A stretch of 64,000 bases of DNA from Antedon mediterranea. Lineage: Eukaryota; Echinodermata; Crinoidea; Comatulida; Antedonidae. Positions within the stretch are counted from its first letter, which is position 1. Every line of letters starts with the position of its first letter. Shown here piece by piece: positions 23,530 to 59,000 of the stretch. Made by a program: the position numbers and the translations under genes. The stretch lies in the NCBI RefSeq assembly GCF_964355755.1, contig NC_092673.1:24681001-24745000 (forward strand). The letters are read 5' to 3'. The notes under the pieces are model-generated. The model was given only the letters and a program-made list of their open reading frames with translations. It made no database searches and was not told the DNA's origin.

Positions 23530-26500
23530 TCACTTCATTCTTGATAGTAGATCTGGCATGCCATCAATTTTAAAATCCAACATCATCTGTCCCAGAGCTT
23601 TACCCTATAAAATAAACAATTACTGTATTATTATAATGACTTTGCAGACATACTGTACATATATCTTTGGATAAAATAAGTCATGAACCAAACACACACA
23701 GTTTTATTGATTTTTGGAATGTGTAATGTACATACACAGGCCCAACAGCTTTATTAGACCATGGAGGTATAAAAAAGTACCTCCATGATTAGACAAATAA
23801 AAAATTATCCACCATATACCCACAACCTTTTTTTCACTTGCTAGGTAGTCACCTTACATGTGATTACATTAGGTTAAACTACCTAATTAGTGAAAAAAAG
23901 ACTATCAAATATTATATTTAAAATTCATGCCGGTACTTGAGCTTTAAAGTATCACATTTAGAAACACCATAAACCAATTGGTAAATAACATGTTTACTAT
24001 GGTTACATGTTCTACTACTAAAAGTTGACTAAAACATTTCAAATGACTAAATTACGTAATTTTTTCACTCTTTATCCTTGGCGGCCAGTCACCAATGATT
24101 AATGATTGATATATGAATGATTGAAAATAATTGTGAATGACCTTTATGATCTCAGGGTTATTTCCAAACAGATTTATTTCTCAATGACACAAAAAACAAA
24201 AATAACCAAGTCTTGAACTTGAAAGTTGACTAACCTGTGGATCACTTCGTAGTGATGCAACACCGCCACCACCAAGGGCGCCCTTTAGCAAGAAATTGAA
24301 TCCATGGATACCAGGAAGCTCAAATCTAGAAAACGATAATTATCAAATAAAGAGAGGGATCTATTTGATAAATTTCAAGATTTTTTGCAATATATGCAGT
24401 ATTTTAAAATTATTTACATAAGTGTTAATAAAATTGGAATAACTCAATGGGTCGTTAAGACTTAAGATTATAAAAAATAGGAATAAGCAAAGAATAATTT
24501 CTCAGCTTTTGTTTTTGTTTGTTTGTTTTGTTTGTTTGTTTGTTAAAAGCACTACAAGTTTCCAATACAAAAATCACGAATTGCTTATTCTTATATAAAT
24601 TTTTAGACACTCTTGTAACATGAGTATGTCAGCAGAATCAACCTTTGACCTATTGGACACCATCATAACATGAATTAATCAGCAATGTATTTCACAGAAA
24701 ACAGAAATCATAAGAAGGTTAAGTGGATTATTACTAGAAAGCAAAATAATAATTTCACAAGTGATGTAATTACAAAGGTCTTCCTTAAAGATTGCCTTGT
24801 CCTTGTTTAGATTGGGAATAATTAGCCTGGTTAGATAATGACCTTAAATTAAAAAACAACAACTTGATTTTGGACACCTGCTATTCATTCAGCTTGAAAA
24901 AGTAAAGTTTAAACTTGACTACTTTATAGTACAGTAAGTACAGTCTTTCGAGTCAAAAGGCTGAGTGATTTTAGCACTGTAAACCACAGCCAATTATCAG
25001 CTGCACAGGTTCAAGTCACTCCTCTGCAATACTGTAAATAGTAACCCACTTCTAATAGTAACCCACCTTATAAGTCTATCTATGATAATAACCCACTACT
25101 CTAATAGTAACCCATGGGGGTTACAATTAGAGTCACAGAAACTATTGACAAAAAGCAATTATGATGCAGCCGTATTTTGAAAATTTGAATTGTAGTGGCT
25201 TCGCTGTAGGTGCCTAATGACCATAGAAGGCCTAATCTGAATTCTAATCTCAATTGAGGATGAATATTGTCAAACATAAACAAACAAAAAGAAATAAAGC
25301 TGAAATTGTTAATAAAAAATAATAATAAATCACAACGTAAATCTCTGTCTACTTTATGTAACAAAAAAAAAGTGATGTGCCCATATATGGACATGATGTC
25401 GTCATATCACTATCATATTTGGGCATATTGCTACCATATTTGGGCACATCACACTTTTTCGTCACATATACTTTGATAGTGTAGACAGAGCTTTATCTAA
25501 CCTTTGAACTTGGTTGTCAATATCAGATTCAAGAATATGTTCAAAGTACTTTTTTACTGCATCTTCTGTGAGTGCCTCACGCAGGTAAGGGACAAAAGCC
25601 GGATCACGGGCGATAACACCTGTGAATGAGCAGATGAAAACGGTTTATTACAAATACTAGATTCTCAAGGACGTAGTTTTTCTCACCTTAAGCTTGGTTC
25701 CCACTAGAACGTAACGCAAGGACGTAAACGCAACGCAAGCGTTTCAACCAATGACAAACGAAGTTATAGACAGTTAGCAATCACAAGCGAATAAGCTATC
25801 GCTTGTGATTGGTCAATTCACTTGCGTTGCGTTACGTCCTTGCGTTGCGTCGCTAGTGGGAACCACGCTTTAGAGACAGTCTGCAATGAAATCTATTTGA
25901 AACGACACAGCGTTATAAACACACAAGGTTTCTACTAAAAATAGATCTTGAATGTTATACTGTGTTATATTATATTACCAAGACAAATCAAAGTTCAATC
26001 CATTTGAAATTAGGCACTTTGGTTTTACTACTCCATGACATTGTCACAATAATCCATTTGGACAAAAGAAAGAAAATAAAGAAAGAAAATAAAGAAAGAA
26101 TCCACTTGGACAAAGAATGCTAATATGAATAAAGTTCTGTCTACACTATCAAACTTTATGTGACAAAAAAATGTGATGTGTCCAAATATAGACATGCTGA
26201 TTTCATATCACTGCCATATTTGGGAATATCACTAACATATTTGGGCACATTACATCTTTTTTGTCAAACTAGTTTGATAGTGTAGACAGAGCTTAGGGTT
26301 TAGTTCAGATTTAAAGGTTTGTAAAGTCTTTTTTAAGTACCATGTTTGAAGTAGATTCGCACAACTTACCAATCATATTTTATTGGTTGGTAGTTTATGT
26401 GTAGATAATTAGTATTAAGTAGCGTCAGAGAGCTAATTACATAAGATTAGGGCAAAACATCTGAACAATTAAGTTTATATTACGTAGTTACAATCCAAGT

Positions 26501-29500
26501 ATGATTGCAATTATGATAATTGTAAAATCTGATCTTTAAGCTAATTGACCTTAGCCTTCTGGCTTAACTATATTTCCGACCTTAGGCTGAAATTCAGTAC
26601 AGGCCTACAAATTTTAAATGATTGTAACTAAAGACGGACAAGATGAACATAACATTGGTTGATAAGGAATAATTAAATCTTCTACAGAGGTATGTCAATC
26701 ATGGTGAAGTGTTTTGGTTCTTCAGAAAGTTTGACGCCATAGAGGGCGCTAATATTACAAATAATCCAAACATAGAGGATGCTATTTAAAAATACAGGGA
26801 CAGGCACTTTAAAATTTCATTGTGCATAACAGGTTGAAAATGTAACAATAACTGCACAGTTTTTCGCCAAAAAAGGGACCTACTGTAGTAGAACCTCATA
26901 CTAAATTTATGCACTATTGGATGTTGCAATCGAGAAGTTGCACCCTTAACAGGAGAAGGGGGATCATTCAAAATATTGGAAAACTATCATGATTATTTAG
27001 AAACTTGAGTGTTTCTTTATAAATGGGTGTATCCATATTAAATTCAGTATATGCTACCCATATTTAAATGATAAGGCAACTTTTATAAAACAAATTGGCT
27101 TCTCTAGCATAAAACATGTTTACTTAAGAAAATATTGTAAATGAATGAGTTTAACATAGGCCTATAAATAGTATTTTAACATTTCCTTTTGCAATTTGAT
27201 GTATTTTTCTCTCGATTTTTCTTTGTTGTTTTATTGTCTTAATTATGCCAAGCAAAATAATAACATTTCTTGAATACTGTGAAATGTTTTTGTGGGTGTT
27301 GGATTCAATCGGATGGATTGTAGTACAGTAGTAATAGTCAGAATGTTTACCTATATTTGCACTGTCTCCCTTGTCCCCACTTCTTGCATAGGCTAGTTGG
27401 CCTAGTGTATAACTAAATGTCCCTGTTTCACATTTACTTTCTGTAGGAGTTTCTGGGGTTGAATTACTACTTGATGTTGTTCTAGGCTGTTGAATCTCCA
27501 CGGTTTCTTTGTGATCATCTACTTCAACATTAACCTATTTTAGGGTTAAAAATTAGTGCCATTGAATAATTAAAGATAATATAGTACGCTTGGACACCAT
27601 GTTTCATGAGCGATGGATTATTCTACTGTCACTATTCATTGGTCAACTCGCTTGCTTATGCTTACGACTTGCGTTGCGTCCAAATGTCAGATTTTCATGA
27701 AATCGATGATACAGTGCTCAACAAACTCAGTACCACATAGTTGCCAGATAGAAAATATGAATTATGAATTTTTTTATGGTAACAATCGTATTTATTTATT
27801 CAACTTTATTTCCTGAGGTGATATCGGTCTTTTCAGAATCATCAATTTCAGCATGTTAGACAATATTATATATAAAATTGAAAAACCTACCGTAACATTT
27901 TCTTTGGGATAAAGGAATGAAAATAACTTGAGCACAGGTGAGCTGAAATAAAGACAGTCAGGTAGGTGTCATAAGTTTATTTACTCTAAAACCGAGTATA
28001 ATTCCATGTCTGAGTATAATTCCATGTCTGAGTGTATCCATAGAGATCTCTATGGTGTATCAGTCTATATATTTTTTTTTTTCATTTATTTGGCATCTCA
28101 ATACATAACATTAAAAATACATCAATAATATATATAATCACCTTAAGATGTTATAATGATGTTATGATATAGATACGCATGTTTACTATTATCTTTTTAA
28201 TAGTGCCCTTTATAGTTAGTTTTAATTTTCAAAATATCGTCTTTTATAGTTTGGACCTTCAAAAAAGCTTATTTTTCCTAGTTGGGAGGTTTGCTAGTTA
28301 GGTCTATTTGGGAGGTTTGCTAGTTAGGTCTATTTGGGAGGTTTGCTAGTTAGGTCTATTTGGGAGGTTTTCTAGTTAGGTCTATTTGGGAGGTTTGCTA
28401 GTTAGGTCTATTTGGGAGGTTTGCTAGTTAGGTCTATTTGGGAGGTTTGCTAGTTAGGTCTATTTGAGAGGTTTGCTAGTTAGGTCTATTTGGGAGGTTT
28501 GCTAGTTAGGTCTATTTGGGAGGTTTGCTAGTTAAGTCTATTTGGGAGGTTTGCTAGTTAGGTCTATTTGGGAGGTTTGCTAGTTAGGTCTATTTGGGAG
28601 GTTTGCTAGTTAGGTCTATTTGGGAGGTTTGCTAGTTAGGTCTATTTGGGAGGTTTGCTAGTTAGGTCTATTTGGGAGGTTTGCTAGTTAGGTCTATTTG
28701 GGAGGTTTGCTAGTTAGGTCTATTTGGGAGGTTTGCTAGTTAAGTCTATTTGGGAGGTTTGCTAGTTAGGTCTATTTGGGAGGTTTGCTAGTTAGGTCTA
28801 TTTGGGAGGTTTGCTAGTTAGGTCTATTTGGGAGGTTTGCTAGTTAAGTCTATTTGGGAGGTTTGCTAGTTAGGTCTATTTGGGAGGTTTGCTAGTTAGG
28901 TCTATTTGGGAGGTTTGCTAGTTAGGTCTATTTGGGAGGTTTGCTAGTTAGGTCTATTTGGGAGGTTTGCTAGTTAGGTCTATTTGGGAGGTTTGCTAGT
29001 TAGGTCTATTTGGGAGGTTTGCTAGTTAGGTCTATTTGGGAGGTTTGCTAGTTAGGTCTATTTGGGAGGTTTGCTAGTTAGGTCTATTTGGGAGGTTTGC
29101 TAGTTAGGTCTATTTGGGAGGTTTGCTAGTTAGGTCTATTTGGGAGGTTTGCTAGTTAGGTCTATTTGGGAGGTTTGCTAGTTAGGTCTATTTGGGAGGT
29201 TTGCTAGTTAGGTCTATTTGGGAGGTTTGCTAGTTAAGTCTATTTGGGAGGTTTGCTAGTTAGGTCTATTTGGGAGGTTTGCTAGTTAGGTCTATTTGGG
29301 AGGTTTGCTAGTTAGGTCTATTTGGGAGGTTTGCTAGTTAAGTCTATTTGGGAGGTTTGCTAGTTAGGTCTATTTGGGAGGTTTGCTAGTTAGGTCTATT
29401 TGGGAGGTTTGCTAGTTAGGTCTATTTGGGAGGTTTGCTAGTTAAGTCTATTTGGGAGGTTTGCTAGTTAGGTCTATTTGGGAGGTTTGCTAGTTAGGTC

Positions 29501-32500
29501 TATTTGGGAGGTTTGCTAGTTAGGTCTATTTGGGAGGTTTGCTAGTTAGGTCTATTTGGGAGGTTTGCTAGTTAGGTCTATTTGGGAGGTTTGCTAGTTA
29601 GGTCTATTTGGGAGGTTTGCTAGTTAGGTCTATTTGGGAGGTTTGCTAGTTAGGTCTATTTGGGAGGTTTGCTAGTTAGGTCTATTTGGGAGGTTTGCTA
29701 GTTAGGTCTATTTGGGAGGTTTGCTAGTTAGGTCTATTTGGGAGGTTTGCTAGTTAGGTCTATTTGGGAGGTTTGCTAGTTAGGTCTATTTGGGAGGTTT
29801 GCTAGTTAAGTCTATTTGGGAGGTTTGCTAGTTAGGTCTATTTGGGAGGTTTGCTAGTTAGGTCTATTTGGGAGGTTTGCTAGTTAGGTCTATTTGGGAG
29901 GTTTGCTAGTTAAGTCTATTTGGGAGGTTTGCTTGTTAGGTCTATTTGGGAGGTTTGCTAGTTAGGTCTATTTGGGAGGTTTGCTAGTTAGGTCTATTTG
30001 GGAGGTTTGCTAGTTAGGTCTATTTGCCATTCATAACTTTTGCTGTTAAATATCTTTTTAATTGTGCCCTCTATAGTTTGATGTAATTTTCGGTTAGAAA
30101 AATACCGCCCTCTACATATTTTGGAAATGTTTTCAAAAAACCTCCCGATATTTCATTCTTCCTAGTTGGAAGGTCTGCTGCTAGGTAGGCCTATTTGCTA
30201 TTCATCCCTTTCCCTGCTAGTTTGCACCCTTGAATACCCCCTGACTAACGGCGTGAACATTGCAACTTACACTCTTGGCCTTCCTCCGACAATACCAGTC
30301 AAACCGGGGCCTGTAAAGTAAAGTAAAGAATCATGATTATTATTTTTATTGTGCTTTAAATTTATTATTTTAAATTAATAATGAAAAAAGATACATTTAT
30401 GATCTTCTACTTCACAACTGTATATAATGATGGTATTAATATTATTTACACATTCCAGTTCCAGCTGGTGCGATCTCTCTTGACAGGATCTCTAAGGCTT
30501 TCTTTTGTGAGTGTTGAGCTGCCATCCAGATGACAATCTCTCTGGGATTTGGCGAGTTACTATGAGGACCATATGACTCTTCAGCGCCAATCATCTGCAC
30601 AAGAACAAAACATAATATTATCAACAAGAAAAAGTTGAGTTGAGTTTATCAATTTCAAACTCTGTGTAGTTATGGTATTAAGCTCTGTCTAGACTATCAA
30701 ACTAGTGTGATGTGCTGAAATATAGTAATGATATGACATCATCATGTCCATATATGGGCACATCACATTTTCTTATAACATAAAAGTTTGATAGTGTAGA
30801 CAGAGCTTAAGCGACATTCCATTTTCAAAAGGTGTCACATGACTATGCAGCTATTGTGTCTTCAGACACTCTGAGCATGCTCATATTTTTATTTTTTATA
30901 TGCAGAACTCGACAGCTGCAAGGTGAAGTGCCATTAAAAAAAAACAAGAGGTTCAAGGGTGCATGTGACAAATTTTGTGTTATTTCTCAAACTCTTTTTA
31001 TTCTAGGTTCTAGCAACTTTGGTAAACAATCTCTGGATTCATGTTAACTCACTTGAGAGGGCCAATATCTAAATGGGGGGAATAACCTGCGACTTGCAGC
31101 CTACTAGACTGAATTGTACACAGGTGTGGACGACACATACCACAACTTTCTACTCCCCTAAGGGTCCTTTCATTGATTTAAATTATTTCACAGTAGGCCT
31201 GTGTATCATCTTAGAAATGGGAACTCCATGCATACACTTATATAGTTAAAAATAAAGATGATAATGAGGTAGCAGGGAGTGGTAAGTTAATTGGTACAGT
31301 AGATGTTAGTACTTTAAGAATACCCTTTTTCCCATAAAAGTAACATATATATTTGTCAAGTTTTACCTGTACATTTGTTTGAGTGAAATCTTCAAGACCA
31401 AGAAACTTGAAAATTTTTCTGACTCTAAAGAAAAAAGGTATTAATTTATAAACTATGCTCTGTAAAATGATAATATATACAGTAATTGTATGGGATATGA
31501 ACCCATGACCTTTAGATCACTAGCCTGGCAATCATACCTCTAGAACATCAAGCTTGTGCTGATGGCTAGGGTTACATTCAAGCTCAAGGATGTAACAGGC
31601 ATTGAACCAACATAATTCTTTAATTCAAGAGAGCAAAGTTATTTGGTCAGATGTTTTTATTTTATAATACATTCAATTTGATTTACCTTTTCAGAATGCT
31701 TTCTGCTGTTCTTCTTCCTTTTTCTGCTGCATTAATTCCTGCGGTAGGGCATACTGCTGTTACCCTGTAACCATCTGTATAAGTTGCACTAACCTGTAAA
31801 ATGTAATGTCTACACTGTATATGTGACAAATAAATGTGATGTGCCCATATATGGACATTATGCTGTCATATCACTACCATATTTGGGCATATCACTACCA
31901 TATTTGGGCACATCACACTTTTGTTGTCAAACTAGTTTTATAGTGTAAACAGAGCTTTAGATAATTATTTTATTTATTTTGACAGCTCTTTTAACCTAAA
32001 TATTCTCAATAGAATTTAAGGACAAGACAGCATGATTTTGACCTCTGACCTATTAACATACAAGTTCAATTCCATACTATTACATCATCTCTCTTTAAAA
32101 AAAATGATGTTTCAAATTAAAATTAGATAAATGTCAGAATATATATATTAATCCTATTACTGACTCATTGAGTTACAGTGACAGAGTACAGTGAGTTAAG
32201 TGACCTTGGTCACTATTCTGACCTATTTTTTATATGCATACATTTTCTTTTTTGTTGATCCAATTCAGTACGATCATAGAGATATTATAGTTCACTATAA
32301 TATCTCTATGGTACGATAGATAAGTACAAAAATGGTCATAGAATACCTTATATTTATCTGATGGTATAGAACCTAGAGCACCTGTCACGGCCACACTTTC
32401 ACCATCAGTGACCTGGGTCAACTTAACCTGACTGAAATCACACGTAACATCAGGTAGGAGGTAGTTCTTAGGGTCACCAATCTCGTACACAAGTTGCTCT

Positions 32501-35500
32501 GCAACTGCAGGTACTGATACAAGTCCGCCTGTTTTGGGTGGTTTGGTGATGATAAATGAACCATCGGAAGAACACTCAGCTATTGGGAAACCAATGTTGT
32601 CCCTAAACAAAAACAAACAAATTGGGTTATAGAGAAGTCAAAATATATTGTTTATATACTGTATGTAATTACTATTATTTTTTTTTCAAATGCATCCAGC
32701 CAGTACAAACTCGCCAACAGGATGGCTAAATTATTTTATAATTTATCGTGCATATAAAATAAGTCTCATTTAAGGTTGAGGGAGCGGAGTTGAAAGAGTT
32801 ACAACCCTAGCACTATGTCAAGATTGAACCTTGGACCTTGAAATTGGAAGGCAAGCATGTTAACCACCAGGCTACAGGTCCATTTTATAAGTGTAGTTTA
32901 TTTTCATATACATTTGGATTCAATCAATTAAAGTTATACTATAATTTTATGTAACAATACCACAATATTATACTATTTCTATACCTTCACTGAATTAAAT
33001 TAAACATACAACACTTATTAGAAAATATAATTAATTACATTTAAATTATAAAAACTAATTTCATAACTTTTTCATTGAACTTTTTTTGGTACACAGTTTT
33101 AAAACTGTACATACTTACCAATCTGGAACAGTATGCCAATCAGTAAATATACCACCAGTCACCTGGGCTCCGCATTCTACTAAATGGCCTGCTAAGCTGC
33201 CTTGAGCCAATAGGTTATACTCATCAGTGGCCCATCCAAACTACATTACATGGACAATATATATGTATATAGTATAATAGATGATGGTCACATAAAAAAT
33301 AAATAAATAAATACGCAGGGAAAATTACAAAATTTACTCCATTAATAATATATGGCAGATTAGAGGATTAAGAAATCGATGTAGGGCCTAGTATCAGTGT
33401 GTGAGAGATGAGAGATATTAGATTTTTACCTTGAGCCTACCTAGGCTAGCTAATGTGCACTGGTAGATTTTTTAATAAAATGTCGTTGCAGTTCAGTATT
33501 GCAAGCAGCCATTGAAAGAGACTTACTGTGTGCATTAGGGGTCCCAAGACAACAGCACTGTCCACACATCGGCCAGTGATGACCACATCAGCACCAAGAT
33601 CTAAAGCTCTTGCTATTGGTGTCGCACTGGTGAAAGAATATGTTGAAGAATTGCAACAAAGAGCACCAACTAAGTGGGTATTTTTTATTTCATTTATTCA
33701 CTGTAGTGTAATTACCAAATGATTAAATACATATTTTTTTTTAAAGCGCTACAAAATTGTAAACATTAGTTGTATTAATTATTTTTGTTGCAGGAATCAG
33801 TACCCAAAAAAATTAAGCTTAAAAACATAATATTAACATATTCATACATCCTTGTCTACACTAGCAAACTTTATGTGACAAAAAAATGTCAAATTAGTTT
33901 GATAATGTAGACAGCTTTAGGATGACACCACATCCTGATTGACTTTCCTTGGAAGATCAACCTCAGGAATGTAGTGATCCACGTTAACTAGGCATCAGGG
34001 AGAATAATGCACTTGTCAATTGTATGACCCACTATACGACCCCCGGGAGAGGTGCGTCATTTGTCCGATGTGCGTCATACTTTTGAATACCATGACGCAC
34101 CCGTGAGTCAAAAAGGTGACTTACCTTTAGGTGACCATGACGCACCCATTTTGACGCACTGTGACCATGTTGTTTATGATATGGTGGGTGGTAAAGTGAC
34201 GGACATTGACACACCTTGTTCATTGATGTGACGTACCATCTAGGTTTTTTGACGCACCCCTGCGTCAGTAATTATTTGTAAATGACGCACCCATGACGCA
34301 CCTTTCCCGGGGGTCGTATAGTGGTTCATACAATTGACACGTGCATAAGGGGTGAAACACATGTGTGTTCTTAGTCGCACCATGTTACAGACTTACCCTA
34401 GATAGGCATTCATACTGACCAGAGACTTTGGCATAGCTATACCAGAATCAATGTCACAAACACTGCTTTCAAATATATCCGATTTCTGAGAAAGAAGTTA
34501 TTTAGGTTGGTTTAGTCACATTTAAGAAATAGGTTGGCTATCGTGCAATTTTATAAACATAGAAATTAATTATGATTGGATTGCATAAATTGTGCATGAC
34601 TGGATCACACAGGCAAAGCTCCCAAGTGTTCTTATTTTTACCATGTCTTATTTTAAAAGTTATACTCGCATAAGTAAGTACAATGCGCATAAAATAAATT
34701 CCCCGACACTTAATAAGTGTTATATTCTCACATCATTAATTAATTATTGACAGTTAATATATAATATATTTGTGAACTTTCCTATAAGAAATTACAAAAA
34801 AACAAACCTTTGATATGATGTTATCACCAGTTACGACTGCAACCTTTAGGTCTACACCAGACTTCTTTGCAACCTCTTTTAGAGCAGCAGCACAACTGTG
34901 TGGGTTGATACCTCCTGCATTACTAATTACCCTCACTCCTTTCTTCTTTATGTCTCCCAGAAGAGGTGCCATTACTGCTTGGATAAAATCTGGTGCATAA
35001 CCAAGTTCCTTTAAATAAAAAATACTATATATATAAAAACAACAAAAAGACACCCTTTGCTTACAGAATACAGAATTACTCCATTAAAAATTACCACATA
35101 CACATAATTATTACCATAATAAACACATACATGTATTACTATAAATGTAAAATACAATGGTAAAATGAATTGGGAGAGTTTTTGGTTTTCAGAAAGTTCA
35201 GTAAATTGGGAAACTTGCATGAATGTTTATAGATATCTGTATAGCATACATAAACAAGTTGAATTCTATTTATTCAAAAACATATAGCACGGGTCAACAT
35301 TTTTGAGTGCGCAATTTGAGTTCGCTACACAACATTAAAGATCAACAGTAACTTTTTACCGGAAATTTGTGTTTTGCAGCTGTAAGAAGTGACATTGTTA
35401 TTTCGGATAAGTAGTCAAAAACCAGAAAATCAATGTTGCCATAGTGAACTAGTTGTGGAGCTGAAAAATAAAAACAATGATTAGTATTATTGATGTTCTA

Positions 35501-36182
35501 ATGCACTTTTATCAGACTATCTTCAATGTTAAGTTAGCCAATACCAATTCGCCAATACCAAGTGGTCAAACATGCATCATGACACCAAAAAAGTCTGAAT
35601 GGGTGCAAACAGTTAAATTATCACCAATCCAATAATCAATATTATTATTATTTACACTTGTTAATGTATTATTTATTTTTACTAGGCCTAGGCTAGGGCC
35701 TAGGCCTATATAGTTAAAATTATTATTATTATTATTATTATTAGGCTAGGCCTAGGCCCTAGTAAGTTTATAAAAAAAGGGTGCGAGTCAACCTTGTTGT
35801 TATTATTATTAATATAGGTATAATGGCCACTACACCTGACAACAAAAAGGCGGATATCTAGGCCTAGTCGCAAGCATTGATGATAGTAGAGGCTTCCTCC
35901 TCCACCTTCCCTGCCTCCCTCCTTCAGGTAATTTCTCTTTTATGCATGGTTTTAAATTTAAGGCCTAGGCTAGGCCTACTTCTTATAATACTAATTACTA
36001 TTACCAGATGTCGCTGTATCGCCCCAAAATCCAGATGCACATCCAATTCGCAACTTTCTTTCTGATGCTTGGGAGCTACAATATCGTCTAATCAATTCAT
36101 TTCTCGAATTCACAGAGACATTATATAGACTTGAAAGTCTAGTATTCATTCTAAAAAACAAAGAGCACTTTGTTAACGACAT
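23530..36182 (-). CDS. AtuA-family (acyclic terpene utilisation, DUF1446) protein, 16 exons
   Basis: Exons in transcript order: 36182-36005, 35460-35360, 35008-34808, 34485-34397, 33626-33527, 33240-33119, 32602-32347, 31793-31687, 31424-31367, 30594-30450, 30310-30271, 27942-27891, 27534-27351, 25619-25502, 24325-24235, 23604-23530. All introns are GT/AG; 1917 nt close into 638 codons plus TGA. An N-terminal domain (from about residue 44) carries [26 protein letters not shown] and [17 protein letters not shown]. The small C-terminal domain carries [13 protein letters not shown] (533-545), a hallmark of the AtuA C-terminal part. Ser/Thr-rich residues 500-516 look like a linker. Bacterial AtuA belongs to geranyl/citronellyl catabolism; its animal role is unknown. 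Residues 1-43 are Arg-rich with one acidic residue before position 41 and suggest a mitochondrial presequence. An in-frame ATG at 36290 would add 36 residues. The intron between 30271 and 27942 holds the large minisatellite. Confidence 0.88.
23753..23794. mobile_element. micro-palindromic insertion A with 7-bp direct repeats
   Basis: The 28-bp palindrome at 23760-23787 has 10-bp arms CATGGAGGTA and TACCTCCATG around loop TAAAAAAG. It is flanked by exact direct repeats ATTAGAC at 23753-23759 and 23788-23794. It lies in the last intron of the AtuA-family gene. It is read as an insertion with a 7-bp target duplication. Confidence 0.75.
24516..24545. repeat. GTTT microsatellite
   Basis: Imperfect run of GTTTGTTT units in an AtuA intron. 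Confidence 0.7.
24975..25025 (+). mobile_element. tRNA-like SINE fragment
   Basis: It contains a B-box-like GGTTCAAGTCACTC preceded by a decayed anticodon arm. It is the only such fragment noticed on the + strand. Weak. Confidence 0.3.
25343..25493. mobile_element. CArG MITE copy abutting the exon-14 donor
   Basis: The left terminal repeat has lost an internal segment (CTCTGTCTAC is joined to CTTTATG). The right one is intact, ending GTAGACAGAGCTT at 25493. After TA (25494-25495) comes the splice-donor hexamer of AtuA exon 14 (minus-strand GTTAGA, 25501-25496). CCATATATGG and CCATATTTGG boxes are present. Confidence 0.85.
25690..25870. mobile_element. MITE of the 'GGTTCCCACTAG' family
   Basis: The terminal inverted repeats are AAGCTTGGTTCCCACTAG and CTAGTGGGAACCACGCTT, followed inward by ACGCAAGGACGTAA against TTACGTCCTTGCGT. 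A second inner hairpin has CAATCACAAGCGA against TCGCTTGTGATTGG. TA follows the right end. It lies in an AtuA intron. No open frame. Confidence 0.85.
26132..26294. mobile_element. CArG MITE, both terminal repeats present
   Basis: It starts AAGTTCTGTCTACACTATCA and ends GATAGTGTAGACAGAGCTT. Inside are CCAAATATAG, CCATATTTGG and the TTTTTTGTCAAACTAGTTTG joint. Left flank TA; right flank AG. Confidence 0.85.
27588..27686. mobile_element. possible decayed relative of the 'GGTTCCCACTAG' MITE
   Basis: It has CGCTTGGACACCATG at the left, CATTGGTCAACTCGCTTGC in the middle and ACTTGCGTTGCGTCCAAATG at the right, resembling pieces of the 25690 element. The inverted repeats are poor. Confidence 0.35.
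27994..28029. repeat. 18-bp tandem duplication
   Basis: GAGTATAATTCCATGTCT occurs twice without a gap, directly before micro-insertion C. Confidence 0.85.
28032..28061. mobile_element. micro-palindromic insertion C with 7-bp direct repeats
   Basis: The 16-bp perfect palindrome CATAGAGATCTCTATG at 28039-28054 is flanked by exact direct repeats GTGTATC at 28032-28038 and 28055-28061. It has no loop. The ends match those of insertion D. It lies in an AtuA intron. Confidence 0.7.
28284..30025. repeat. 26-bp minisatellite, 67 units in perfect register
   Basis: The GGG of the unit starts at 28284 and recurs every 26 bp to 30000, so there are 67 units with no net length change. Each unit reads GGGAGGTTTGCTAGTT, A(G/A)GTCTATTT. 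A common variant has TTAAG instead of TTAGG, at 28531, 28739, 28843, 29233, 29337, 29441, 29805 and 29909. Rare variants are GGTTTTCTAG (28367), GAGAGG (28466) and GCTTGTTAGG (29931). Flanks share a further repeat (TATCTTTTTAAT.GTGCCCT.TATAGTT near 28190 and 30052; CCTAGTTGG.AGGT at 28278 and 30161), so the array grew inside an older duplicated element. It lies in the AtuA intron between 30271 and 27942. Confidence 0.95.
30680..30808. mobile_element. CArG MITE copy
   Basis: Both terminal repeats are present (AAGCTCTGTCTAGACTATCA and GATAGTGTAGACAGAGCTT). The interior is short, with one CCATATATGG box. It lies in the AtuA intron between 31367 and 30594. Confidence 0.85.
31488..31565 (-). mobile_element. 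tRNA-like SINE head
   Basis: On the minus strand, TCTAGAGGTATGATTG resembles a decayed D-arm/A-box and GGTCATGGGTTCATATCCCA is a paired T-arm with a B-box. The acceptor stem is not convincing. Lies in an AtuA intron. Confidence 0.45.
31808..31957. mobile_element. CArG MITE copy next to the exon-8 acceptor
   Basis: The left end is truncated (GTCTACACTGTATATGTGAC); the right end is TATAGTGTAAACAGAGCTT. It has one CCATATATGG and two CCATATTTGG boxes. Only 12 bp separate it from the acceptor AG (31794-31795, minus strand) of AtuA exon 8, so it supplies the upstream part of that 3' splice-site region. Confidence 0.8.
32268..32317. mobile_element. micro-palindromic insertion D with 7-bp direct repeats
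   Basis: A 36-bp hairpin at 32275-32310 has 16-bp perfect arms (CATAGAGATATTATAG and its inverse) and loop TTCA. It is flanked by exact direct repeats GTACGAT at 32268-32274 and 32311-32317. It starts 30 bp inside the intron from the donor of AtuA exon 7 (exon end 32347). Confidence 0.8.
32811..32886 (-). mobile_element. tRNA-like SINE head
   Basis: On the minus strand, CTGTAGCCTGGTGGTTAACA is an A-box-like D-arm and CCAAGGTTCAATCTTG is a T-arm with a B-box. It lies in the AtuA intron between 33119 and 32602. Confidence 0.5.
33852..33917. mobile_element. CArG MITE reduced to its two ends
   Basis: A 66-bp remnant: the left end (TTGTCTACACTAGCAAACTT, TATGTGACAAAAAAATGTCA) runs straight into AATTAGTTTGATAATGTAGA and the outer right end. 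The whole CArG-box core is absent. Confidence 0.75.
34007..34346. mobile_element. 340-bp inverted-repeat element with nine TGACGCA words
   Basis: The ends are imperfect inverses over about 50 bp: ATGCACTTGTCAATTGTATG, then ACTATACGACCCCCGGGA and AGGTGCGTCA at the left, with matching inverses at the right (GTCGTATAGTGG, ACAATTGACACGTGCAT). The heptamer TGACGCA or its inverse occurs at about 34050, 34071, 34093, 34140, 34153, 34250, 34261, 34284 and 34295. No protein is encoded; it looks like a non-autonomous DNA transposon. It lies in the AtuA intron between 34397 and 33626. Confidence 0.8.
35678..35766. repeat. TAGGCCTAGG palindrome with ATT microsatellite
   Basis: ACTAGGCCTAGGCTAGGGCC and its near inverse AGGCTAGGCCTAGGCCCTAG flank a run of ATT units. 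Similar TAGGCCTA words occur at 35962, 38021, 63165 and 63573. Confidence 0.7.
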
Positions 36183-36720: not shown

Positions 36721-36729
36721 AAAAAAAAA
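36721..36729 (-). terminator. Pol III terminator of tRNA-His
   Basis: A run of nine A on the + strand is nine T in the transcript, 33 bp after the mature 3' end, which fits RNA polymerase III termination. Confidence 0.65.
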
Positions 36730-47000: not shown

Positions 47001-50000
47001 TATAAAGAAGAGGTTGTTGTACTTAAATGTAATGGTTATATTTAATATGCCTTTATTACAGTAAAGTAAGCCATACTTTGATATTTTGATAAGTACATTT
47101 GGCTCTTTGTCAATGTAATAAATAAAAATATGAAAGATTTAGATCTAGTGCATTTTGCATTGTTTTTAAATTTTAAGGCTTATATTTTCTGTCTCAATTT
47201 TCTTGTAAACAAGCCTTTGCAGGAGAATATCGGCATGAAAAAAAGCAAACTGCTTCTTAATACTGTAACTAGAAGGTTTTAATAAATAGGCAATTTATTC
47301 CAATGACTAAAAGGTACTGTATTGCTAATCGACACATTACAACAAAGTATTTTTATAAATGTTATGTTGTGTGTACAGTGTATACATTAATCTAGTCTAA
47401 CTACTGTGCACATTTCAGATTCTACAGACATTCATATTCCATAGTTAATGAAACCTCATGCTCATTTATTAATTTATTCTTGATAAGACCGATACATTAC
47501 GATTATAGGTATTCTATTCTCTAAAATAATACGGATAATGGTATGATTAGTTTATCCAAGTAAGTATTAAAAAAACATATTCAATAATTATTGTGTTTTT
47601 CCCTAACTGTTTGTAAAAATGTTCTACCAAATATATTAATTGCTCTTATTGTTCTTTTCAGCTCGGACAGCAGGTTGTTCTTCTTCGGGAAATAAATGAT
47701 CAAATTACTTGTCGTTTATGTGATGGATATCTTATTGATGCCACCACAATCACTGAGTGTTTACACACATGTAAGTGTTTATTCATTTATCACTGTATGT
47801 ACAGTACAATAGCCCTGTACTGTACTGTACAGTAGGTGATTATGCAGTAATGAAAACTCTTTGTTGTCTTTTGGCTTTTAATTTTTAGTAAACTAGCTTT
47901 TTTTTATTGACATACTGTACTCAATAAAATGTTGTTATCCCTGTGTACTTGAATTACACAATTTCGCAGCCTTTTGTGCTCAAAAGAAAAATCTGTTACG
48001 GTATATTATTTATACGTCCTCAGAACAAGCTCTATAAATGTACCCTTACAAGTCAAATTCACTTAGACATAATCCCATTGTCCAAACTTGACTTTACAGT
48101 CAATATCATGTAAAATGGATGTTGGTTTAGTACTATATACATACAGTATTGTGATATGTACTGCTGAGTAATAGTTGTATTATTCAATCCTCCATAAAAA
48201 TAATGATGAATTATGTCAATATACTCCTTCATAAGACATTTATTTTCATGTCAGAGAAAGGGATAAACTTGATTTGATCTTGCTTAGAAATCAATCTGCT
48301 CATTGAAGTTTACTTCTAGAACCACTTTATAAACTAACCCTGTATATGTTTGTAAGTTAACCTACAATGATGATATGTCTGTAAAACCTCTCAATAATGT
48401 GCCCGTATTTATCCAGTCAGTTTTTCGCAGAAAAGAAGGGTTATGTTAATCTGTTGACTACCAGTAAAATATTTAAAATAAGAAAAGAGAATTTATGGCC
48501 TGATAGTACTGTAGGATAGTTAAAAATAAAGAAAGACACTTTAAGCATAAATGTAATGCATACATGAAACTGGAGATATTTTAATTTTATTATAATGCCC
48601 ATTGATAATTCAAAAATATTTATTTATACAGTGCTATTAATAAAGTTAAAATTAAAAATAGATTTTTTTTTATTGTTAAAAGTGTGATTAAAATAATTCC
48701 GTTATTGTCCAGATATGTCCCATCATATAATTGACTGTAATTCCATTCAAACACGTATCTGGTTTCAATTTAGGAGTACATGTCTGATTGCAACTAATTT
48801 GAATAATATTAATAGCAGCTTAAGAAATAGCTTACATGATATCACAATATTTAAATAAACCTAGCATGTCTAGATAGATGATTGGAGTTACATAAATTAA
48901 ACAAATGGATATCATAGGTTTTATTACTGATTTAAGATGTATTTGTGTTCTCTTCCCATTATGTTATCGCAAATTGATGATTGCTCCGGGAAATGATAAT
49001 CGTTTGTTATTATCCTATGCACCTGTCAAAGAGACGCAACCCATGAACTAAAACTGGAAGGCAATAATGTTTATATTTTGGGCTTTACAAAAAATGAATA
49101 GAAAATAAGAATTAAACCTCCTCAGACCCTCATCTAGCGAAAAATTACTACCCCACCCCTGGATCCACCACTTTTACATACCAGTTGTCGGTTGTTAGTA
49201 AATTATCTTTTAGTTTTTACTAAATTAAGAATACTGGAAATTAATTTTACCCCCTTATCAGCCACTCCCAATGCCAATGTTCCAAATTCAAACCTTTTTA
49301 TCAATGCATGACTTCTGATGTCACTACAGTATGTTTAACGGCCTTTCGTGAAAATAAAATATTTGCCATAATTAATTAATAATAATTGTTGTTCTCTTTT
49401 GTTTTACTTTCAGTTTGCAAGAGCTGTCTTGTCAAGTACCTAGAAGAAAATGTAAAATGTCCAATATGTGATATAGTTATACATCAAAGTCATCCATTGA
49501 ATTACATTGGGTAAATTCTTTTTCTATATATTAATATTTATCTTAATAAATTGTAGCAGTGTCATAACGACTATATGAGCGCTCACTTGCTAAACCCAGG
49601 GGCTCAGGAGGCGTTTGAATTTACCGCCAGTGCCCACTGCATTTTGGGTACTGCTAACAATTTCCGTTGACAACCACCCACTGATTTAAACGGTTATTTA
49701 AAAGCTAAAATCGAGCAGAACTGCAGTCAATATATAATTATATTTTAAATCTATTTTGAAATTAATGGTTTATTTGGCGCTATGCTGTAAGAAACAGACC
49801 CTATGAAATAAAAAAATAAACATCAATGAGTTTGTATGTATGCAAAATATTATAAATGCTGTACTGTATCCAATTGTTCTGGACTCCTGTACAGTATAGG
49901 ATTTGTAATAAAACATCTCAACATTGCTTCTGGCATTCTTGTTCTTTTCATTGTTTGAAATCTCTGTATAAATGTCTGTCTGTTTTTGAATATTCACTCT

Positions 50001-53000
50001 GTATGAGAAAATGTGCCTTGCTAACTTGTAATGTGATCACATAGATTATTGATTCCAGTGAAATGTGTATTTATCATAACAAAATAGCATTACTACAAAA
50101 CCTATAGTACAGTAGCAGACTTATACACGGAGGTATTTTCTCCCAGCATCATATTCTTGTTGAACTTCTGAGCACCACTTAAGTCCTTTTTACCCCTAGG
50201 CTAAGGATTTTGAATGTACTGTGTACACTTCTTTTCCTCTAGTTTCAGCAATAATATTTATGCAAGCAAACTTTATTCTAGCCTAAAGGACAATGAGCAT
50301 TTCTGCATGTGCTCATATTACCAAATGAGCAAAAGGTGTTACCATTTTCGATGGCAATTAAATTCCATATTTTATTTATTGTCAAAATTGTTAGCTTTTG
50401 GTTACTTTATAGTACAGCAGTACAAAAAATAAATAAAAGAAATTATTTCTCCATGGTACACTCTCTCATGATTACCTTCTGATATTTATGGTTGTTATTC
50501 TGGCTTTTAATTTTATAAACATATAAAACTATTTGAATGCTGAATATGAAAGTAATAACTGTACAGTATAACTTGAAGATTAGCAATATTTATCTAAATT
50601 GAAAAGCACAAACATCATTTCAATACTTGGAAAGCGAAACTGAAGCTCGTTCATGCGTACCTTTGAACTGTCTGTTAAATCGGGGAATTTTGCTTTTCAA
50701 ATAGGATTTCTGTATTTAAAAATTACAACAAATAAATTAAAGACACTAATGCTGTATCATTACACATTTTAGTGTTGATAAATTGATGTTACTTTTGTTT
50801 TTTTGTACGCCAACTCTGTAAATATGTGGTTAATTTGTATTCAAGCTATAATTCCCTATGGAGAAGCTACTGTAACAGATTTTAACATTTCATTTTTCAT
50901 TCGAGATTTCAAAATACTATTAAACTATTGTAGTTTAAAGTTTTTTTTTATTACAACCCTATTGTTTTATACTTTGCATTTTGATAATATAGTTTTATGA
51001 GCGCTTGTGCCTATTTCTACAAGAAGCATAATCTTATAAAAGCAGATTTTCTGAAATATGTATTCTTAATTTAATTGTTTCTCAAAACCTTTTCAAAATT
51101 TTAGATGATATTATCATTAATTTATAATTATTGTGTCCCGTGATTTTTTTTTTGTACTGTGCATAAGTTAGAGACTCCTTATATGACAGATAGCCAAACT
51201 AACTTCCTAAATCTTAACCTAACCATGTAAATAATCTCTCTCTCACTCTAAAGTAAAATGAAGTTGCTCATGGGATTTGAACCCCGTGCATCGACATGCA
51301 AAGTCCATAATCTAAACCATTTGACTACACAGACAGCTTGATGGAAAGCATTGGCATTAGTGAATGTAAATGCAATCCATGAGTTCAACTGTAGATTTTT
51401 AAGATAATGTTTCAGTTTAGTATGTAGTGTGGTGAGTTCTTGCAGCAAGCAAGAAGAATTTCAACTGTCACATGTTTGGCCTTTGACAATAAAGTTTTCT
51501 TGTATCTTGTAGTTTAGTTCAATTCTTTAGTCACCTTATAGATTTGACTAATGAATATTCATGTTTATTTTGTGACGTTTCATGAGAGGTCCCCAACTAT
51601 GTACGAAAAGAAATGTCGCGTCCAGCTCCTCCCAATAATTGACAGGGTATTGTCATTATCAATTGTACACTCATATAGTATTAATTACCATAATTTTTTA
51701 AAAATTATTTTTAAAACATTTTTTCTTAGATTTGATCGAACAATGCAAGATATAGTTTATAAATTAGTACCAGGTCTTCAAAAAAGTAAGTTTTTATTAT
51801 TAATTGTTTATTTATATACATTTAGAATTAGAATATAACTATCCTTTAAATAATATATTTAGATATGGTTATCCATTGGTTTAGTACCAACCAATATGAT
51901 ATATAAAATGATTTCATAATGGAAAAAATTAGTTTTATAAAAACAAAGGGTAAACTAATTACTTTTTCTGGCACACAAAAGTATAAAATATATAATTCCA
52001 TGCCATCATGTTAGGATTCAATTTTTCAATATAATGTCTGACTTTACAGTAGATGTGTTTATATAATGATCATACTGTACAATACAACTCCAACCAACGA
52101 TCTCCCTCCCCACCCACAGTACAGTGCAGGTAGGTCATAAAAGTACATGCCGTTGTATGGCTCAATAATATAATATTAAGGGTGTGGATGTGAAGTTATT
52201 ATCAGTAATATCCCTTTTCATTCACATACTACTGTGTCAATGTAACTACATTTTACTATGCTATGAATAGAAGAGGAAAACAGACGGTATCCAATCTTAC
52301 TTTGTGATTACCATCATATTATTTAAATAATTTTCTACTTAGGTATATACCACTTAATAAATAATATATTCAGAGTGTCTCTCTTCTCCACGCTTTTCAT
52401 CCTTAAATACATTAAAACTATATTTATCATATTTGATAGAAACTTAATATTATTTATAAATGGAATAATAATTAATATATTTTTTTTACATTTTGATTTT
52501 TCAAAATTTAAAAATTTCATTTATCTTGATATCATTTTTGAATTATGAATTTACTGTAAATGTAAAGCACAATGTTTATTTTAATCGTTAAATAATTTCT
52601 GTGAAAAATTGAGGTGTCTAAAAATGAGCACAGTACAGGCTGACAGTACTGTGTCTGTAGATAGCATACACCATCATAAATTTGATCGAATGTCAGCCTA
52701 AATATCTTTATATAAAGAGATTTCTGTGCATCTTTGAGGTTAATTGTTTGCCTAAAGACCAGTAACGATAAGGCGAAAAACCATGTAGCTTGTCTTACGT
52801 AGAATCTGTATCTATCCTGAGTGAAAATAGCCTGCTCTGCTTTGTGTGTATAAATGGTCATAAGAAATAACATAGATTTTTATTACCATTACCGCTCCTC
52901 TCTGTAAATTGGCTACAGTACTGTATATATTACCTAAAATAATAATTGTTTAACAAAAAATGTTTTGTTTGGAAAAACTACAAATTTTAATTCTATTTTA

Positions 53001-56000
53001 AAATAAACTCTTATTAAATTAAGTTTTATGCAGCAGAAACAGGCGCAAACACAACAACCATGGATTAAGAATGAGAGACATTAGTGTAATGTCATTTTGA
53101 AGTCCATTTACCATACTGTATGTACACGCAAGTCAAATTTTTGTGAGCACAAATTTAGCAGAAATGCAGTCAACCAAAATAAACGGTACATTCAGTGCTA
53201 TGCATCAGAAACAGGCCCTTAGTTAGAATGCTGGTTATAATTATCGCTGTCCACTTTTTTATCTAGTTTACAATGCAAAATAGCTGAGAGCCAAACCAAC
53301 ATTGGATAATAACACTATATAATGCCATTTTGAAGTCCATTTACCATGATCCATAAGTCAAGTTTAATTTGTCATGTTGAAAGCAGTCATAACTTATACC
53401 AGATGGTAGTAGAGAAATCAATCAAGCATTACTCATTAATCAAAGTAGCTTGTATTGTATAGCTACAGTAACACATTAACTTTATTTCTACTTTAGGCTA
53501 ATCTTCTTTGTTTGCTTCTAGCCAGACATGCAACGGATTTCTTTCATTTCCTTTCTGTTGCTACACTGCCAGCCGAGTTGTGCCAGCTATGATAACCATG
53601 AAATGAAAGTTGTAATGGGATTATAAATAAAAAGGTTCTAGGATAATCCCAGTTTACCGTAGTATGGCCATGTCCAAGTCGGTACGTCCAAAACCCATAT
53701 TGCCGACTGTATTTAAACTTAGAAAATTTGTTTTATGATTTATAAAGTCTATTTCCTAAAAGATATCTTGGTGTTTTGTAATGCCTTTTTCATTCGAAGC
53801 CTACACCAAACTCATGTTATTGAAGGAAACATTTCATTGATGGGTCGTATATTAATTATTAATGGTGTAAACAAAAGCTCTTGTGGCTAGGGTGGTTAAT
53901 AGTAGCAACAAAAATAAAAAATAAATAAACAATACAAATTTACAACTGTTTTTACTGTCAAACAATCCAAAGTTCTCCTACTGTACTGCAGTGTAAATCT
54001 TCAAAATCCACTTTAAATCTATTGTAATCCTATACTATGAATAAAGGAGGAGTGTAGGACAAAGGTGTAGCATTTTACTGCTATTGTTCATTGTCAAAGT
54101 ACAGGGCTGGCATTAACCATTAACCTGTTTTGCTTAAGCCGACCTCTACTGTTACAGAACTTGTAGTAGTCTCCTCTTTCTTAGTAGCCAGATGCAGTGC
54201 TACTGAAAGATAGTGCTAGCTCGAACCAAATTAAGTCTACTGTATGAAAGCATACACCGCCAACAAAATGACGGATCTTATACCACTTTCACATACCACT
54301 TAGCAAATCGCAAGAGTTTACGCACACCAGGGTGTATCATCATCAAAAACAAACCTGTATTGACGCCCCTGTACTGTATGTAAACCTCAGAGTGAAAAAA
54401 AAATTCACTGTTTTTCAGGTTAGCAGCAGCGACTGTTAAAAAGTCATTTTGATTTAATAGTGAATACTGATAAGTTATACTGTAGCTCCCCATACATGTG
54501 TAACAATTAACAATATTGAATACTGTACATAACAAGCTTTTCACACATGATCGTACATTGTGAATTGATGCGTTTAATTGCCATTAACCAATCGCAATAC
54601 TGAATAAAGGCTACGAAATAATCATACAATAATATTCACTTTGACCAATTACAATAGTTAATTTTATTTTATTTCAGTCCTTCATTAATAAACGACATTC
54701 GCCACTCAAAGAATTAGAAACATGTTTTCTTACTCTAAATGATCAAGTCATTAATTTAGCGCTTCAGTTAAATTTACAAACTAAACTATATATTTTAAAT
54801 GCGTATATGGATATATAATAATATGGCGGATATAAAATTATTTAAGCATTGCGGTACTCTAATCTTAGTATTCCTCGTTTGGAGAGACTAATTGTTGGTT
54901 TATCTGGTATCTTGGGCATAAAGTTTGGCAAAAAATATAACATACTACTATTTTAATAATTTAAATATGCGTAAAGCAAAGAGAACATTAAAGAAAATAT
55001 GAAGAGCTGTTATTAACTTTGTCCCAGTAACATAGGTCAACTGGTCCCCAAGCAATTAGCCTGTTTTGTTGATTGCTGTTTAATGTTTTCAACATTCATC
55101 AACAGGAGAATTAGGAAGGCTCAATTGTTGCTATTATTACTAAGCAGGTGGTAGATTGTAAACATTGTTGTTTAATACGTGCACTAGGCACATGGTATAA
55201 TATTTATTTGTTATCAATGCACTGTACTTTTGATCCATTTTCTGTGCTTTCTTTACTACAGCACAAACCTGTTTCTTGTTCACAATTTTTTGGAGACACT
55301 TTATAGTAAGCCTACAGTACTTCTGTTTTTGAAATACAAAAACAGAAAGTAGAGGGTTCCTGTAACTTAACTAAAACACTACTACTACATTACTTCAGAA
55401 AGGTTTATTTCATGTTAATTTTTTTTAAACATTTTTTTAAAAACCATATTTAATGAGGATGATCCATCCAGCTATTGCTGATCGTTAGGGACCCTCAGAG
55501 GTTCACAAGACAAACATAAGATGCTCTACATAAACAAAGTCTTTTTACAAGTCTTTGGGAGTGGATAATTTGGTCCTTAGAAAAAATCCTGACATGTGAC
55601 AGGACTTGAACCCAGGACCCTTGGAGTGGTAGCCAATAAGCATCATAACCACCAAGCCACAACTCCACTCCAAATTAGAATTTAGAATTCACATGCATAG
55701 ATAAATAACATAAACTATGTGTAAACAAACAAAATAAATAAAATGTTACTACTGTATATTCAGTGAATACAAAACAACCAACAGTTGTTCATTTGTTTCA
55801 AATGTAAATTTAAACTATTTTGATGAATGGTCAGCATAATCTCTCTCTCTCTCAAAAAGTTTCCGTTTTTATGTATTGTTATGCATTCCACGTTCTATAT
55901 TCAGTAAGTGGCAAAAAATATTTACAAAAATCTATTTAAAAATATTATTACAAAACAAACAAATTGTATAATTTTTCTGATGAGGGATGACTGGAAGTTG

Positions 56001-59000
56001 ATAACACTCTGTACAAGGTTAAACTGTAAAAGTCAAGGCAAATTATGATAATTATGGAACAAAATGTCAACTCCTACATTTATTTTAAAAAGACAATTTT
56101 TTCTGTTTGAACTGTTTATTCAAATGAAAATAAAATACCATAGCAAGATTTAAAAAGTGAAATTGTCCTTTTCATGAGATGTTTTATTTTTGTCTTGTGT
56201 GTGTTCGTCCCACTTTTATTATGATACTCTGTAAATACATATATTTTTTCAAACATATTTTGTTTTTTTTCATGAGATGTTATTGTTAATAAGAAGAGAT
56301 AAATAAAATATTGAGTTTAGATACAGTATGGATTTAATTACATGAGATGAGCTATCTATACACAATTTCTACGAGAGAGTTCAAATAAAAGAGTGCATAG
56401 TGAGCAGCTGTAGGTTTTGACATTAACCATACACAGGAAATAAAGTACATTATGGTACAATAGGAAGAGAAAAAAAAATATGTGAAAAGAACAAAATATT
56501 ATTTTTACACGATTTTGTCTTAGTCTTTGCAGTTTAAATTTTAGTTTGTTCTGCGTACGCAAGGTAAACATTGCACTCGATATATTACCCTCATTTTAAT
56601 TGGTTGGGTGGGTATCTAGTAATGTAGTATGGGTGAATTCTGAAACCTTTCGGAAGTTACATTGTACTGTATGTAATCATGGAGGTATAAAAAAGCCTCC
56701 ATGATGTAATGAATGGTACTATTATGTAATGTGTAACCTCTGGAGCCTTGCAGAGTTATATCAGGTGTGTGTACCCATCAGAGTTATATTTTATATCTCT
56801 ATCGAATCGAAGGTGCATCAAAGTTATATTGGAGCATGGAGAGGTATCTAATTTTATACTGCTATGATTGGAGGAGCTACCAAGTTTCCTGATCACACAA
56901 GCATTAGTTAAAGTACTACATTGGTTGTAAATCTGATATGATTCTGATCAGCTTAACCCTGTTATATTATACAAATAATGAATGTTTATGAGTGCAATGG
57001 TACAAATAATGGCACGAGGTGAATGATGAAAGGTTATATCAACGAGGCAAAGCCGAGTTGATATAACCTTTCATCATTCACCAAGTGCCATTATTTGTAC
57101 CATTACACGAATACAAAACATTCATTATTTGTTTTATATAACATCTAGACGTTTTTTTTTCGTACACAAAAATGTTTCAAAAAGTACTATTTAACGATCG
57201 TTGAATAGTGCGTACTATTGCACGCCATGTGACCCACATTCGTCCAATCAAATGACAGGAATTTATATAGGTGTTATATAAAAACACTTAAATCCAGTGT
57301 GTGTGAGCATAGTATGTACTGTATGTGGTATATACAGCTTTAGTACAATAATTGTGAACCTGACATTTTATACCTCCATGGTAATGGTATACTGTACTAT
57401 ACTAGTTTCTTGTATATTAATAATAATTATTAATAAAAAAACCTACAATTCAAAATTTTAGATTAATGATCTACTGATTTTAAGATTTGTTCATTGTTTC
57501 TTTCTTCAATAATTAACAGTTAAAGCTCACTGCGCTACTGACAAAGAACATTAAAAAAGTTACAAATCTTAAAGACTACAAACATCACAAATATGCTTCA
57601 AGTTTTCAGGATAAGACATGGTGAATAAATGAGTTTTTAAGCTAGACTTGAATGTATATAATGTACTAGAGTTAAAGTAATATTGATTTATTTTTTTCTT
57701 TAAGGAGAAGAAGAGCAAGAAAAAGAATTTTTTGATAATTATGGCAAAAATGAAGAAGAAGAAAAATCAGGTTTGTTAATAATATTTTTATCATTGAAAT
57801 GTCACTTAAAGGATGATAAGTTGTCAATATTGACTTTGTTCTCAGACAGAAAATTAATGAATTAATCTAAATGTTTATTCGTTTATCAGTTTATTGCAAA
57901 TCTAGTATTAATTTATTATCTTTATTAATTATACTTTTAATCAATCAATCCAGTAGGTATCTATGTACCTGTATTGGAAATGCTTAATTGTTCAATATAA
58001 ATTTATTCAACATCTACATTTCTGCCACCTAATATTATACCTAGCTTAAACTCTGTCTACATTATCAAACTAGTTTGACAAAAAATGTGTAATGTGTCCA
58101 AATATAGTAGTGATATCCCCAAATATGTTAGTGATATGCCCAAATATGGTAGTAGTGATATGACATCATCATGTCCATGGGCACGTCCCATTTAAAGTTT
58201 GTTCGTGTAGACAGAGCTTTAATTTTCTATTAACACCCACCCTGAAGCGTGGTTCCCACTAGCGACGCAACGCAAGGACATAACGCAACGCAAGTGAATT
58301 GACGTCCTTGCGTTACGTTCTAGTGGGAACCAAGCTTAAACAAGCCTCTTAACAACCATCTAAAGGGCATAGCATGGTATATACAACCTACTCTACTGTA
58401 AAGGGGGTGACTACTGTAGACTAAATAATTTCTCCATGACTAGAGCAATCTATTTTTTAAAGCGCCGATTGTCATTTTTGTTGATGACATGTTGTTTTCT
58501 GGGAATAAAAGTTAAGAGTACAATGATCATGACCCATCCTTCAGTTTTTGGTACCTACCCTAAGTAAATCTTCCCCCTTGTGTATATGTCCATAAAATAA
58601 TAACATAATAATACTAATACTATACTATAGTATGAAGAGTTATACAGTATATTAATAAATCATGTTCATGATTGATTAGAACAAACTAATTGAGTAAGTA
58701 AGATACTGTACGCATGTATAATCATTAAACATTGTCATGTACATAATAATAATAATAATAATTTATCATGTTATTGCCATCAATTAATATTAATACAGTA
58801 ATAATATTAAAGTACTAGGCATATATGAGGAAATCGGAAATAAAAGAAATATAATAATGATCGTAATCATGTACTGTTATTTTCACTTTAAAGCAAGATC
58901 AGAAAAAAAAGATCCAACAAAATGGTACACCAGGTTTTGATGCGTTAATATTTCCTCACTGGTGATTCAACGAGGAAACAATGCACATTCAATTGTTTCT

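Follow-up and report, generated by a model that had tools for sequence, protein, structure and literature searches.

The window analysed here is a 64,000-nt stretch of Antedon mediterranea contig NC_092673.1 (positions 24,681,001 to 24,745,000; GC content 31.5%) that contains four short palindromes, each set between two copies of a 7-bp sequence that differs from locus to locus (Table 1). In this study, we conclude that these palindromes are very probably footprints left by the excision of P-type DNA transposons of several families, and that the genome appears to retain over a thousand such scars. An earlier note on this DNA had described the four loci, and all are present with exact 7-bp repeats around palindromes of 28, 16, 36 and 26 bp; a generic scan of the whole window, which asked for inverted arms of 7 in a length of 14-49 and an exact direct repeat of 7 bp, returned only these four. 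The shared plan CATRGAGRT...AYCTCYATG that had been proposed for them holds generally but fails at the fourth locus, where the right arm reads GCCTCCATG.

Table 1. Putative footprints in the window and bounded elements elsewhere in the genome. TSD, target-site duplication; ORF, open reading frame.
Feature	Coordinates	Strand	Length	TSD	Family	Content
Putative footprint A	window 23753..23794	+		ATTAGAC	1a	28-bp palindrome 23760-23787
Putative footprint B	window 28032..28061	.		GTGTATC	2-like	16-bp perfect palindrome 28039-28054
Putative footprint C	window 32268..32317	-		GTACGAT	2	36-bp palindrome 32275-32310
Putative footprint D	window 56671..56710	+		ATGTAAT	1a	26-bp junction 56678-56703
L074			3130 bp	GTGAAAT	1a	
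C3 element	C3:12873686-12888305			GTTTTAG at both ends (read in L101 and L011)	1a	616-aa P-type ORF
L102/L103 element	C11:6724249-6727388		3140 bp	GTAAAAC	1a	
L095	C11:13871856-13878179		6324 bp	CGGTATC	1b	P-type transposase ORF
L120			566 bp	GTTTCAA	2	single copy

Palindromes and duplications across the genome

The pattern CATRGAGRTN{0,30}AYCTCYATG has 1560 matches in the 354-Mb genome versus 4 for a reversed control pattern, which is the genome-wide excess that the earlier note had suggested looking for. Since the density is about 0.28 per 64 kb genome-wide and the window holds three strict matches, the window is richer in palindromes than average. Duplications were scored at the first 40 of 50 listed sites, a non-random sample that lies entirely within the first 9.7 Mb of contig C1. 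An exact 7-bp repeat stands at the palindrome edge at 30 of the 40 sites, with one mismatch at 3, two mismatches at 1 and no repeat at 6, and exact edge repeats of 5, 6, 8 or 9 bp occur at none, in agreement with the claim that the duplication is 7 bp long and not 6 or 8. Re-pairing flanks between different sites gives an expectation of 0.077 exact 7-bp matches in 40, and when the repeat was read at 15 displaced positions, two gave one exact match each and thirteen gave zero. The 30 exact repeats comprise 28 distinct sequences, of which GTnnnAC/T is the preferred form. Five of the 40 sites, in two groups, have shared flanks, and 1560 is therefore an upper bound on the number of independent events.

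Probable parent elements and their transposases

The genome contains matches to P-type transposase domains (13 to PF12017 and 35 to PF21787, some being pieces of one gene), and parent elements were located around these matches and by pairing ends in listings; pairing listed single ends by eye yielded L074-L077 and L120. The ends are CATGGAGGTATAAAAAAG/AAGGAGATTC... in family 1a, CATGGAGGTATAAAAATA/GAAGGAGAG... in family 1b and CATAGAGATATTATAGTGAACT/GGAGAAAC... in family 2, the stroke marking the usual end of an arm and not a measured cut. The 616-aa ORF of the family 1a element on C3, found in L011, matches PF21787 at 2.8e-19; about 4.2 kb of the interior of this element is unread, and its continuity rests on the matching duplication. 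The family 1b ORF in L095 matches the same domain at 4.9e-24. A larger transposon with the ends of the palindromes, as the earlier note had proposed to seek, was thus found (L095 among others), and P-type elements, named there as a possible source, are supported by the P-type transposase ORFs within these bounded copies.

Family 3 comprises L003-L008, with ends CAAAGATCTTATATACTA/AAGAT and matching 7- or 8-bp duplications in 4 of 6 copies; L004 and L007 have the ends and lack a matching duplication. L003 carries transposase helix-turn-helix, RNase H and THAP domains (the last PF05485, 4.9e-08). The two family 4 elements, L096 and L097, are 5.55 kb long with ends CTGAGACAACAATCAAAG and TSDs CGGACAC and TATAAAC. 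The L096 ORF matches PF21787 at 3e-26 and the GTP-binding insertion domain PF21788 at 6.5e-18, and the family 4 protein has a match at 1.5e-14 to 6p5a, a Drosophila P transposase chain. PF21788 was not reported in the 582-aa L095 ORF, which terminates near the start of that region. The domain search reported no THAP domain in the L096 ORF, and none in families 1a and 1b, where a weak zf-AD-like match, below cut-off, lies at that position. P-type RNase H transposase domains are therefore found inside copies bounded by terminal inverted repeats (TIRs) and TSDs in families 1, 3 and 4, and the parents of these families are P-type as judged by their predicted transposase domains. Only similar ends and duplications place family 2 among them; at 566 bp, L120 is too short for a transposase gene.

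If the palindromes are footprints, then P-type families whose ends are unrelated should each have given rise to palindromes too. Our search of families 3 and 4 followed this prediction, which held. Family 3 palindromes number 24 genome-wide, against 0 in the control, with an exact 7-bp repeat at 8 sites and an exact 8-bp repeat at 6, and with one mismatch at 3 and 3 more; two pairs of these sites have common flanks. Family 4 palindromes number 14, again against 0, with an exact 7-bp repeat at 7 and one mismatch at 3; three sites have common flanks and four others look related. A pre-insertion state was also recovered. L074 carries a 20-bp footprint between two copies of GTATTAA, and in the matching stretch of its paralogues L011 and L012 a single GTATTAA stands without a footprint. 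The empty site that the earlier note had hoped to see therefore exists, at one site and between paralogues rather than individuals.

Two routes to a family 2 parent were abandoned. The AGGAG motif gave 0 matches, L120 having TGGAG at that place, and L079 was rejected as the end of a family 2 element because 7 of the 8 other matches to it sit on the same contig in a span of about 31 kb. Around the P-type matches L001, L002, L009 and L010, 8 kb of sequence yielded no bounded TIR/TSD pair, save for one chance-like match in L009, and the left ends of L098 and L094 resemble family 1 (CATGGAGTAAAG...), with no matching right end seen. A second ORF without a Pfam match faces the transposase ORF in L011 (5054-6010, minus strand), L095 (4379-5407, plus strand) and L096 (4864-5835, minus strand); it is 34% identical between families 1a and 1b (5e-42), with weak similarity in family 4 (1e-4). 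The family 3 elements L003 and L005 have both flanks in common, in opposite orientation relative to the element and with the duplication reverse-complemented, which reflects either an inversion or insertion, the other way round, into a duplicated site.

Arm limits, junctions and rival explanations

The parental family 1 repeat extends to about 35 nt, and the palindrome arms end while it goes on. Family 1 arms were sampled from 24 sites listed for an exact 16-nt arm, 20 of them distinct, leaving out element-paired sites and, among the first eight, palindromes already in the 1560-match listing. Their lengths are 16 nt (1 site), 17 (1), 18 (10), 19 (5), 20 (2) and 21 (1), and the longest arm among 32 listed family 1 palindromes is 20. 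Some chance extension past 18 is expected; 8 of 20 seems above that, and family 1 may be cut at 18 or 19. Family 2 arms (25 distinct of 27 fetched sites, scored against the single copy L120) reach 23 at most, six of them reaching 22, and 0 of 48 family 3 arms exceed 19 and 0 of 28 family 4 arms exceed 17. The patterns searched for left room for longer arms. Within each family the arms thus stop at a set point of the terminal repeat, to within 1-3 nt. Genome-wide there are 394 exact 16-nt family 1 arms (192 + 202), a count that misses full ends mutated within the search pattern, and 16 of them run on into the sampled parental repeat (GAAGGAG). The other 378 are partly non-independent, some being ends of other subfamilies or partial elements (L075-L077) and some sitting in amplified repeats (L087 is the same as L104, L118 and L119, and L086 the same as L112). 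An exact second 7-bp copy lies within 75 bases of the single arm at 14 of 20 family 1 sites and 16 of 25 family 2 sites, compared with 2/552 and 2/702, respectively, when flanks of other sites were used as a control.

We propose that a full element, on insertion, makes a 7-bp target duplication, with GTnnnAC/T preferred, and that the transposase may later excise it by a long staggered cut. By analogy with Drosophila P, from which we draw the cut itself, the polarity of the tails and the repair pathway, this cut would leave each flank with a single-stranded 3' tail made up of about 17-22 nt of the TIR, the length varying by family. Filling in and joining of the tails would yield a palindrome between two target copies, because the two tails are nearly identical in sequence, and a joint that is blunt, has filler bases or falls at short matches would shorten one or both arms. 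Junctions in the genome are of blunt, overlap, filler and strongly asymmetric classes. In the window, scored against the family 1a repeat, A combines 18 nt of the left arm with 10 nt of the right and D, an asymmetric junction, 18 nt with 8 nt, both with zero overlap. C combines 22 nt of one arm with 17 nt of the other, 3 bp being common to both (scored against L120 from an identical 36-mer in L045, reverse strand), and B reads by eye as 9 + 9 nt with AT in common. Overlaps of 4 bp occur at 5 of 32 family 1 joints, versus 3% expected, and of 6 bp at 5 of 24 family 3 joints, two of the five having common flanks, versus 6%; the expectation comes from a rough random blunt truncation model that uses one repeat variant per family, whereas sites were scored against all variants. 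End joining is well supported. A specific pathway, such as one using polymerase theta, is only suggested, since the excess of microhomology is modest, the model rough and family 4 shows no excess.

The earlier note read the palindromes as minimal substrates moved in trans, that is, as miniature inverted-repeat transposable elements (MITEs) of 16-36 bp that a transposase cuts and pastes. Its premise of insertion with a 7-bp target duplication stands, and both the exact duplications and the identical sequences at unrelated sites suit such units. A MITE, however, should move with both terminal repeats intact, and the copies at window positions 23760 and 56678 and at L109 and L122 are asymmetric or one-armed. 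At L109 and L122 the second target copy directly abuts the remaining arm, and in L075 about 95 nt of right-end sequence follow 18 nt of the left end; such copies fit poorly with a mobile unit that needs both ends. Filler bases at the joints and arms that stop early argue against it too, and the excision products described for Drosophila in PMC2895639 match what we see. We therefore regard movement of the palindromes themselves as very improbable.

Interrupted copy repair after excision, in which synthesis-dependent strand annealing (SDSA) followed by end joining leaves an internally deleted element, is about as improbable as an account of the whole set. SDSA with end joining is described for Drosophila in PMC2895639, and L075 and L076, in which about 95 or 58 nt of right-end sequence remain beside about 16-18 nt of the left end, are remnants of the kind it predicts. 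Yet 30 of 45 distinct single-arm sites have a second 7-bp copy within 75 bases and long remnants look rarer, in a partial tally and with palindrome patterns that, at a maximum of 30 inner bases, are blind to long remnants; excision is, moreover, the first step of that route as well. An origin from a superfamily other than P (hAT, Dada or another), whether as footprints or insertions, is still less probable. Duplications of 7-8 bp would, taken alone, be compatible with it, but the elements that have these ends and duplications carry P-type transposase domains, and in family 4 the transposase matches that of Drosophila P itself; for family 2 this counter-argument extends to similar ends and duplications only.

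Several observations weigh against excision footprints of P-type elements as the explanation. The repeat is absent at 6 of the 40 sampled palindromes and has two mismatches at one more; family 3 lacks it at 4 of 24 sites and family 4 at 4 of 14. Among single arms, a 6- to 8-bp repeat copy within 75 bases is missing at 6 of 20 in family 1 and at 7 of 25 in family 2. Identical products at unrelated sites are also expected of mobile units. No single cut position fits all families, since arms in family 2 run to 22-23 nt and those in family 4 to no more than 17. The microhomology excess over the rough blunt-truncation model is only modest, and absent in family 4. Finally, our search found no autonomous element with family 2 ends, L120 being the only copy. 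The shared ends, 7-bp duplications, arm limits, P-type transposase in bounded elements and one empty site are seen in the sequence itself, and we regard excision footprints as very probable.

Known systems, probable scar clusters and neighbouring features

The transposase of Drosophila P makes an unusually long, 17-nt staggered cut (PMC7776569, PMC10983969). The end-joined P junctions in Table 1 of PMC2895639 run from one target copy through a portion of the repeat, then a short match or filler, then a portion of the inverted repeat, to the other target copy. The Antedon junctions are alike in having duplication copies around partial terminal repeats, blunt, filler and short-match joints and strongly asymmetric products. 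They differ from the Drosophila set, which comes from lab crosses and has an 8-bp duplication, 17-nt tails and up to 17 nt kept of each repeat: in Antedon the duplications are mostly 7 bp, the tails are inferred to be about 17-22 nt long depending on family, and the set is natural and spans the genome. The zebrafish Pdre2 / THAP9 P-like elements also have a P-type transposase, share with families 1 and 2 repeat ends that begin with CAT, and have 13-bp TIRs and 8-bp duplications; the part of PMC10983969 consulted on them describes no genome-wide footprint set. The 8-bp duplication typical of Drosophila and zebrafish was not seen in families 1 and 2 (0/40 exact 8 bp).

Among the titles and abstract openings that our searches of open-licence PMC literature returned, none describes a genome-wide natural set of P-type palindromic footprints. 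A genome-wide comparison of DNA transposons in two rice species (PMC4423477) has reportedly been made and may be related. The novelty lies in how large the natural set is, in the 7-bp duplications, in the family-dependent arm limit and in the longer inferred tails; the kind of object is already known. The P excision junctions of PMC2895639 came from lab crosses, and the Antedon genome offers up to 1560 natural germline junctions. Such a set could act as a fossil record of transposition, could show how breaks with long 3' tails are mended in an unstudied organism, and could reveal transposons that are otherwise nearly gone, such as family 2.

At L102/L103 (C11:6724199-6727438) the order is TSD, footprint, TSD, element, TSD, with GTAAAAC throughout, and a later element here occupies the target of an earlier, excised one. 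L087, L104, L118 and L119 are a scar cluster with GTCAAAC between scars, which recurs in the genome, and L104 includes an apparent 4-bp CATG footprint (GTCAAACCATGGTCAAAC). At L100 (G000:C1:19904700-19905220) there are eleven tandem copies of a 43-bp unit made up of a 36-bp family 2 footprint and the 7-bp duplication GTCCAGG, whose asymmetric centre flips orientation within the array. We tentatively put forward, as a rather doubtful proposal, a P-type clade whose stagger would depend on the family, close to 17 for family 4, 18-19 for both family 1 and family 3, and 22 for family 2, and might end 0-3 nt before GGAGA (1a, 1b, 2). The clade might also go back to earlier scars when it inserts. Footprints would then accumulate at a single target copy (GTAAAAC, GTCAAAC) and could seed tandem arrays whose 43-bp unit is a scar plus its duplication. 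In L010, positions 7804-7828 hold CAGAGCCATTATAATAATGGCTCTG between exact 8-bp repeats TAAATTAG, perhaps the scar of yet another family.

In the window itself, a lone right-end-like arm, TTTTATACCTCCATG, followed by GTAATGG, lies at 57366-57380; its left partner was not found there, and it is possibly a one-armed footprint or the end of another subfamily. A long hairpin-like inverted repeat at 56960-57143, with 62-nt arms that are 89% complementary and 3 nt apart and with outer 28-nt arms, shows no sign of a connection with the footprints. Finally, an open reading frame of 332 aa at 20525-21523 encodes a predicted rhodopsin-type G protein-coupled receptor (PF00001, 9.3e-57).

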